Made by a program: the position numbers and the translations under genes. The notes under the pieces were generated by a model. The model saw nothing but the letters and a program-made list of their open reading frames with translations, did not search any database and had not been told where the DNA came from. 51,462 nt of DNA from Candidatus Saccharimonadota bacterium (GTDB lineage Bacteria; Patescibacteriota; Saccharimonadia; Saccharimonadales; Saccharimonadaceae). Each line of letters starts with the position of its first letter. The stretch's first letter is position 1. This document shows positions 19,186-46,150 of the stretch, in pieces. The DNA is taken from contig JAFWJE010000009.1 in NCBI GenBank assembly GCA_017511685.1, positions 1 to 51,462 on the forward strand. The letters run 5' to 3'.

Positions 19186-19767
19186 TTATTTTTTCTTAGT
19201 GTAAAGCACGTGGGCAAAATCTAAACCATTTTCCTTTCCTTTCTTTAACACTTTGCGTGTGTACTTAGCAAAATCTACCTCTGGAAAAAACACATCCGCG
19301 GTTTCATCCACCGCATCTACCTCTGTCAAATACAATTTATCACAATATGGCAGCATCTTTTCATAAATTGACGCCCCGCCAATCACAAACACTTCCTCCT
19401 CCCCCTCAGCATGCTCCCGCACAAAAGCATCCAGGTTGTCGACAATGCAAAGCGGCTGCTCCATCCCAGTTGCGGGATCTTTGCGGCGACGGGCCGCAAG
19501 GATAGGGAGCACCCCCGCGACGGCGGGCGGTGCGACCGGTGCCCGCAACGGGATGGACAGCCGTTTAGCATTACGCGTGACCACATAATGCTTCCTCCCT
19601 GGCAGCATCTTAGGCAGACTTTCAAAGGTCTTTCTCCCCATCAAAATCGGATGTCCCATTGTCACCTCTTTGAAAAACTTCAGGTCCGACGGCAGCCGAA
19701 ACACCAACCCGCCATCCCGACCCAGCTCTCTGTTTTTACCAATCGCCGCAATTAAGGAAAAAGACAT
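19186..19767 (-). CDS. folA: Dihydrofolate reductase with an in-frame palindromic insert
   Basis: DHFR regenerates tetrahydrofolate after the ThyA reaction. Family motifs are LIAAIGKNRELG, LPSDLKFFKEVTMGHPILMGRKTFESLP, and VIGGASIYEKMLPYCDKLYLTEV. The enzyme is 193 residues against about 160-165 usual. The surplus is residues 71-103, encoded by a GC-rich block (19461-19556) bounded by inverted repeats and rich in internal hairpins. The insert falls in the surface region between the YVVTRN strand and the next helix, so activity may be kept. It lies 14 nt after thyA. Confidence 0.93.
   Translation of the reverse strand: MSFSLIAAIGKNRELGRDGGLVFRLPSDLKFFKEVTMGHPILMGRKTFESLPKMLPGRKHYVVTRNAKRLSIPLRAPVAPPAVAGVLPILAARRRKDPATGMEQPLCIVDNLDAFVREHAEGEEEVFVIGGASIYEKMLPYCDKLYLTEVDAVDETADVFFPEVDFAKYTRKVLKKGKENGLDFAHVLYTKKK
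19461..19556. repeat. GC-rich palindromic block inside folA
   Basis: Outer inverted repeat CCATCCCAGTTGCGGG (19461-19476) and CCCGCAACGGGATGG (19542-19556), complementary with a single bulged base. Inside are TTGCGGC/GCCGCAA (19481-19487/19493-19499) and CCCGC/GCGGG (19514-19518/19523-19527). Its base composition is clearly richer in GC than the flanking folA sequence. It is read through in frame and adds about 32 residues. Confidence 0.75.
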
Positions 19768-26269: not shown

Positions 26270-26416
26270 AAAAAAAATAAATGGGTGTCGAAACGTGTGT
26301 TTTGCGCGACATAAGCTTGGCCATCCCGCCCCTTGGGACGCGGCGAGCGCGAAGCGCGACGCGGCCTTGAGCGGTCGCGCAAAACACATGTGAGACAGGC
26401 CCCATTTATTTTTTTT
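26270..26416. repeat. Long hairpin element, copy 1
   Basis: Outer arms of 16 bp, AAAAAAAATAAATGGG/CCCATTTATTTTTTTT (26270-26285/26401-26416), then GTC/GAC. An internal loop GAAACG (26290-26295) faces TGTGA (26389-26393). Inner arms of 15 bp, TGTGTTTTGCGCGAC/GTCGCGCAAAACACA (26296-26310/26374-26388), enclose a GC-rich centre with GAGCGCGAAGCGCGA. The A/T arms make it a bidirectional terminator after rplL. The same loop recurs at 33985-34165 with unrelated arms. Confidence 0.85.
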
Positions 26417-33978: not shown

Positions 33979-33984
33979 AACCGT

Positions 33985-34165
33985 ATTATAACATAGAAAC
34001 CTAAAAAACACGAAACGTAAGTTTTTGTCCGTCTGACAATTAGATTTGAACTTCAAAAATGTATATTCCTGACGCGAGCGAAGCGAGCCAGTGTATGACA
34101 TTTTTGAAGTTCAAGTCGAGGACAAAAACTTATGTGAGTGTTTTTTAGATTTCTTATGGTATAAT
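33985..34165. repeat. Long hairpin element, copy 2, with a promoter in each arm
   Basis: Outer arms 33995-34011 and 34138-34154 (AGAAACCTAAAAAACAC against its complement with one mismatch) extend outwards to mirror-image -10 boxes (33985-33990 minus, 34160-34165 plus). The internal loop GAAACG (34012-34017) faces TGTGA (34133-34137), as in copy 1. Inner arms TAAGTTTTTGTCC/GGACAAAAACTTA (34018-34030/34120-34132) and a third stem TTGAACTTCAAAAATGT (34046-34062) with its perfect complement (34098-34114) follow. The centre holds CGAGCGAAGCGAGC. It fills the gap between the divergent rmuC and DHH genes. Confidence 0.88.
34157..34165 (+). promoter_or_regulatory. Extended -10 promoter of the DHH gene (leaderless)
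   Basis: TGG-TATAAT (-10 at 34160-34165) ends 6 nt before the ATG at 34172. The mirror minus-strand box TGT-TATAAT (33993-33985) serves rmuC. Confidence 0.75.
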
Positions 34166-34171
34166 ACAGAT

Positions 34172-45577: not shown

Positions 45578-45583
45578 ATAAGA

Positions 45584-46150
45584 ATGAGCGATAGTATGAC
45601 CTCTTTCGAAGGGTCTAAGACTCGGCCGAGCGGCCCGAAGCAGCCAGAGAAAGATGGTCATACATCACTCATTCGTCTATCCGGCCCCATTGAGCATGAC
45701 AATATCGTGAACGGCTACGGCCTCCGCGCCGTACTCTGGACTCAAGGCTGCTGGCGCCACTGCCCTGGCTGCCAAAACCCTGAAACTTGGGATTTTGACG
45801 GTGGTTTTGAAGTCGACATAGAAGAAGTTAAGTCTCGCCTTGCCGCTTTAAAAGGTCAGGCCGGTATCACTTTTTGCGGCGGAGAACCATTTGAGCAGCC
45901 AGAAGCCTGTCTTGAAATTGCCAATTTCTGCCGCAAAGAACTGGGCTGGAACATCTGGAGTTTCTCTGGATACACCTACGAGGAGCTTAAAAAAGCCGGC
46001 GGCGCCAAACTCGCCTTCTTAAAATCTCTAGACGCTTTGATTGACGGTCCTTTTATCTTAAAAGAACGCGATTTGACACTAAAATTCCGCGGCTCCCGCA
46101 ACCAACGCCTCTTACACCTAAAAAATGGGGAAATAGAAAGCGTAGAATAA
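45584..46150 (+). CDS. nrdG: Anaerobic ribonucleotide reductase activating protein
   Basis: NrdG is a radical SAM enzyme that makes the glycyl radical on NrdD. The CX3CX2C cluster motif is WRHCPGCQNPE with the first Cys in TQGCWRHC. FCGGEPFEQPEACLEIA is the glycine-rich SAM motif. The 188-residue length is slightly above usual, with about 25 extra N-terminal residues rich in Ser/Pro/Lys. The start follows AAAGGAG and lies 6 nt after nrdD. Confidence 0.95.
   Translation: MSDSMTSFEGSKTRPSGPKQPEKDGHTSLIRLSGPIEHDNIVNGYGLRAVLWTQGCWRHCPGCQNPETWDFDGGFEVDIEEVKSRLAALKGQAGITFCGGEPFEQPEACLEIANFCRKELGWNIWSFSGYTYEELKKAGGAKLAFLKSLDALIDGPFILKERDLTLKFRGSRNQRLLHLKNGEIESVE

Follow-up and report, generated by a model that had tools for sequence, protein, structure and literature searches.

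A putative mobile palindromic element inserted in frame in folA and other genes of one Saccharibacteria genus

The folA gene of this Candidatus Saccharimonadota bacterium carries an in-frame palindromic insert that we read, with a probability of about 0.8, as one copy of a non-autonomous mobile element of a single Saccharibacteria genus, whose in-gene copies are translated and whose outer arms probably arise by template switching. Copies are dispersed within and between genomes. Those in genes sit in frame and avoid one closed reading phase, and their arms are locus-specific. Below, the window denotes the whole 51,462-nt stretch of DNA analysed; the insert and its parts lie in it as follows:

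19186..19767, (-) strand: folA (dihydrofolate reductase, DHFR; 193 aa), with in-frame insert
19474..19544, (+) strand: putatively mobile core of 71 nt (GGGATC...GGTGCCC), antisense to folA, shared with the genome's other copies
19477..19503, (+) strand: inner hairpin A (ATCTTTGCGGC / GCCGCAAGGAT)
19509..19533, (+) strand: inner hairpin B (GCACCCCCGC gacg GCGGGCGGTGC)
19460..19476, (+) strand: left outer arm (TCCATCCCAGTTGCGGG)
19542..19557, (+) strand: right outer arm (CCCGCAACGGGATGGA)
19444..19458, (+) strand: stretch that prolongs the left arm outward into folA codons, partner 19558..19572
19558..19572, (+) strand: stretch that prolongs the right arm outward into folA codons, partner 19444..19458

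The original prediction described a palindromic, GC-rich block lying in frame in folA, and the block bears this out. It forms one long stem with two inner hairpins, as had been proposed, at 19477-19503 and 19509-19533, and its GC content is 67–70%, against about 35–52% in most of the flanking sequence. The RNA fold of 19440-19576 reaches -83.1 kcal/mol, against a mean of -53.7 (sd 3.75) for shuffled sequences (z -7.85), and none of 200 shuffles folds as well. A 15/16-bp inverted repeat had been taken as the boundary; the arms (19460-19476 / 19542-19557) do pair, with one bulge, but the stem reaches beyond 19461-19556 to 19444 and 19572, through a further 15-nt arm pair (19444-19458 / 19558-19572) that is 87% complementary. 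Among copies, hairpin B shows compensatory changes at six of its nine consensus pairs. DHFR, predicted to exceed its usual length by about 30 residues, is in fact some 34–36 residues longer than both the PDB DHFRs and the protein of its nearest relative; the insert adds about 34 residues in the loop behind strand C, after residue 67. The element has no match in Rfam at the gathering score or at E values up to 5.

Other copies of the block are present in its own genome and throughout the genus. The own-genome search, in a 524-kb draft that is 78% complete (the other genomes are also drafts), yielded four further places, a partial copy and three full ones, the latter 86–100% identical across the 71-nt core. 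Their hosts, named from their sequences, are TsaD, the linker of an RNase HII-YraN fusion, the tail of a DegT-like aminotransferase, and a membrane protein. All four copies lie in open frames, and the orientation of the core relative to the reading direction varies. A covariance model of the core matched 57 of the 60 same-genus genomes (at most 25 matches per genome), two of 122 genera across the order, and one of the 209 genera sampled across the phylum; its E-values are rough, and the inspected copies are nonetheless of one common architecture. In that phylum-wide sample the family is restricted to one Saccharibacteria genus, where its host genes include aminoacyl-tRNA synthetases, GTPases, TsaD, GatA/GatB, and DHFR. 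In a direct hairpin scan of sampled stretches, the density of long hairpins per 100 kb was 7.4 for the own genome, 6.6 for G021, and 2.5 and 1.7 for two further genomes of the genus; two genomes from other families had 0 and 3.3. Part of these hairpins belong to other, AT-rich spacer families. A tRNA origin of the element was rejected, with no tRNA found at the insertion sites. The lone matches that many genomes gave to query positions 11-35 (e.g., L129) were set aside as a conserved segment distinct from the element, one that we take to resemble RNase P RNA.

The window holds several other repeats. A spacer hairpin at 26270-26416 (147 nt, dG -75.9, ends TAAATGGG / CCCATTTA) has related repeats at other places of the genome (L216, L223) and a related 33-nt end at 110-142. 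An AT-rich hairpin of 185 nt at 33983-34167, between two divergent genes, is a palindromic spacer element of another family, and the N-terminus of an NrdG-like radical SAM protein carries an in-frame hairpin (45582-45674) of another insert family. The contig itself starts within a repeat (1-142) that recurs at 96–97% identity at several places in the genome (L218, L221), which makes an assembly break at this repeat probable.

The outer arms of the element are locus-specific in most copies and do not form a fixed family terminus. An arm pairs with its own partner at a median score of 27, compared with 12 for the arms of other copies, and in 52 of 71 copies this score exceeds the 99th percentile of the between-copy control. 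Several arms extend into host codons. At TsaD site 1, the downstream arm enters the conserved FPLL codons in eight of 18 inserts; in the clearest case (L168), the upstream arm holds 23 nt that are the reverse complement of the FPLLSLVI codons. Likewise, TTCTGGCGCC in the empty YchF site of G178 is identical to the downstream arm of the insert in G078, whose upstream arm is an inverted copy of that sequence; about 10 bp of the inner stretch are unaccounted for by inverted copying. In folA, divergence of the nearest relative at this point is too great to distinguish the native arm from its copy; nor do the G000/G033 comparisons in TsaD and ArgRS distinguish the two, as the empty site is diverged or itself a small quasi-palindrome. 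The arms are not always made anew: they moved together with the core in L002/L005 and between the two TsaD sites of G016 and, likewise, of G078.

Fold-back synthesis on the target strand is, we infer, the simplest single account of these arms. A two-hairpin structured core of some 70 nt would insert into genes and spacers with long inverted arms; DNA synthesis from the target would probably fold back and copy the adjacent host strand (template switching), producing the arms and leaving inverted host codons around the core. Template switching creates and repairs hairpins by one-step inverted copying (PMC8794818). It is also conceivable, if unlikely, that the arms are not templated, and that the core inserts alone while later selection for a longer stem shapes both arms. 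Orthologous copies differ by a few compensatory changes in their arms (IleRS L313/L319; spacer L279/L285), which fit such a course, and selection on pairing could be their source. Arms of 20–50 nt that match conserved host codons, such as the 23 nt of L168, are hard to reach through point changes, whereas such stems are known to be both formed and maintained by single-step template switching (PMC8794818). A separate AT-rich spacer family (GGGACTTG...CAAATCTGGTCTAAATCTCATTA; L236:6180-6323, L239:19446-19584, L225:16104-16235, and L226:12484-12610) has locus-specific arms of 22–31 bp, some of which overlap the 3′ end of the upstream gene. Its arms behave as those of the studied family do, and its core is unrelated.

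The element could instead be of the MITE or REP type, moved by a transposase in trans and bounded by ordinary terminal inverted repeats. Its size, palindromy, and copy number suit this description, and a different insert family (in YchF of G005, G029, and G255, and in G021) seems more constant-ended (GGGTGACGC..GGCAGGACCCGTC). In the studied family, however, the terminal repeats are locus-specific in most copies and not conserved family-wide as in a MITE, and the transposase domain of a REP/REPIN-RAYT system is missing: Y1_Tnp (the RAYT/IS200 domain), the only enzyme class sought, is absent from all 22 same-genus genomes searched and present in seven of 14 other-genus genomes of the order. The compared target sites show no clear direct duplication, a comparison to be read beside a transposase search of that one domain. 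Given the locus-specific terminal repeats and the missing Y1_Tnp domain, we consider a MITE or REP origin rather improbable. As for the agent that would move the core, we tentatively propose that insertion of the hairpin goes hand in hand with copying of the target strand, with each copy drawing its arms from the host gene and with no recognisable transposase, and perhaps with an RNA- or transcription-linked step that would explain the sense-strand bias described next.

Coding copies of the element are held in frame. Among the 71 distinct copies read, 59 lie inside ORFs of at least 120 aa and 12 are non-coding. All 59 coding copies sit in an open frame; eight of the 12 non-coding copies have no open frame at all, and no coding copy is of that kind. 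The coding copies comprise 21, 29, and 1 in the three sense phases and eight in antisense. The avoided sense phase is the one that stop codons close in nearly all cores (it is open in two of 59); it is used by one of 51 sense copies against about 17 expected (binomial p about 3e-8), with copies of one insertion in related species counted separately, so that the counts are not fully independent. Reading phase would be irrelevant to a segment that was removed or skipped, and the in-gene copies are therefore apparently translated as protein segments and not excised, as judged from their sequences. The predicted translation of the folA insert includes APVAPPAVAGVLPILAAR. In-gene copies would survive only where they are a multiple of three bases long, free of stops, and placed in surface loops or linkers.

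The sense strand is strongly favored: 51 of the 59 coding copies are in sense orientation, compared with 23.4 +/- 3.6 expected, and the cores have more open frames in antisense. The folA copy belongs to the antisense minority (8/59). Candidate causes of the bias are an RNA-linked mechanism, targeting of purine-rich coding strands, and selection acting on the peptide or the message. Together with the strong stem and the presence of the element in essential enzymes, the bias might also suggest that the element is removed at the RNA level or bypassed by ribosomes, in the manner of an intron or translational bypass, leaving a protein of normal length. Undecoded inserts of this kind are free in stops and phase, yet here the closed phase is avoided, every coding copy has an open frame, and both orientations and several frames occur. 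We regard removal or bypass as very unlikely.

The insertion into folA is recent. Among 30 aligned same-genus folA genes, only those of the own genome and of G021 are long at the insert site, and G021 has a different hairpin in the same loop. In 28 of the 29 other genes read the site is empty, including that of the nearest relative, G033 (159 aa); the nearest named relatives of this folA are mostly Saccharibacteria of goat, sheep, and other guts (mostly ruminant). The TsaD site is likewise empty in G033, whose TsaD is 89% identical across the aligned stretch. A second hot spot lies in TsaD, and all 18 inserts read there are in frame. In YchF, 17 empty sites form a three-residue turn, and ten genes are filled at that same turn by several unrelated insert types, all in frame. 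An ordinary lineage-specific extension of the DHFR loop, palindromic by chance, may be dismissed: DHFR loop length does vary, but near-identical copies sit in unrelated genes, 28 relatives have an empty folA site, and the fold has a z of -7.85.

Two further observations concern the Der GTPase and YchF. Der has inserts at roughly the same position in both G019 (antisense, L117:996-1067) and G030 (sense, L260:1501-1588), which are likely independent insertions at one hot spot. In YchF, two genomes (L269 and L270) have the flank and element in common and differ in sequence beyond, through either recombination between element copies or misassembly at the repeat.

Structure prediction is consistent with a tolerated insert. 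The modelled DHFR keeps its fold, superposing on B. subtilis DHFR over 157 residues with Z 21.6 and rmsd 1.9, and its PDB relatives align on either side of the insert. All residues invariant in the genus folA alignment lie outside the insert, and residues 71-100, the insert loop, have a pLDDT of 48–64. The proposed placement in a surface region of DHFR agrees with this model, in which the fold is predicted to be intact around a disordered, low-confidence loop, and the added loop is structurally plausible.

The original prediction likened the block to Rickettsia palindromic elements (RPEs), a comparison that is apt as to behavior. RPEs and their Wolbachia equivalents are palindromic, about 100–150 bp long, and of several families; they occur in spacers as well as, in frame, within genes for core enzymes, and their positions are reused by different families (PMC10969869, PMC4316617, PMC3767692). 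The Saccharibacteria element is likewise a repeated palindromic unit of about 100–150 bp, found in frame in existing genes as well as in spacers, at hot spots shared by different insert families. It differs in its host phylum, Saccharibacteria instead of Rickettsia or Wolbachia, its range having been searched within its own phylum, and in having outer arms specific to each locus and made up in part of copied host codons; for the Saccharibacteria element the sense-strand bias has also been quantified. We do not claim RPE membership, because the phylum is another one and the arms behave differently; the likeness drawn here is one of behavior.

Other systems share single features. REP/REPIN elements with RAYTs are short palindromic repeats in many copies, as is the Saccharibacteria element, and REP super-families have been described (PMC3733652). 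They are mostly extragenic, unlike the element, and their RAYT partner domain is absent from the genus. In Nematomorpha mitochondria, long inverted repeats inside genes encode functional protein; both arms there encode conserved protein, and the abstract of that report describes no mobile core (PMC6649704), whereas in Saccharibacteria the arms lie on either side of an inserted core. Template-switch hairpins resemble the element in that one-step inverted copying makes and repairs their stems, but they are not mobile and have no shared core (PMC8794818).

In-gene translated palindromes were previously known mainly from Rickettsia and Wolbachia. Such elements had been thought undescribed for this group, and the open literature searched, which leaves most subscription papers outside, contains no earlier report of palindromic elements in Saccharibacteria or candidate phyla. 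Protein-coding palindromes recur here in very small Saccharibacteria genomes, with empty and filled sites spread across dozens of species. These sites make testable both the movement of such elements and the one-step origin of new protein segments. The inverted copies of host codons, a feature absent from the RPE descriptions compared, may be a footprint of the insertion mechanism.
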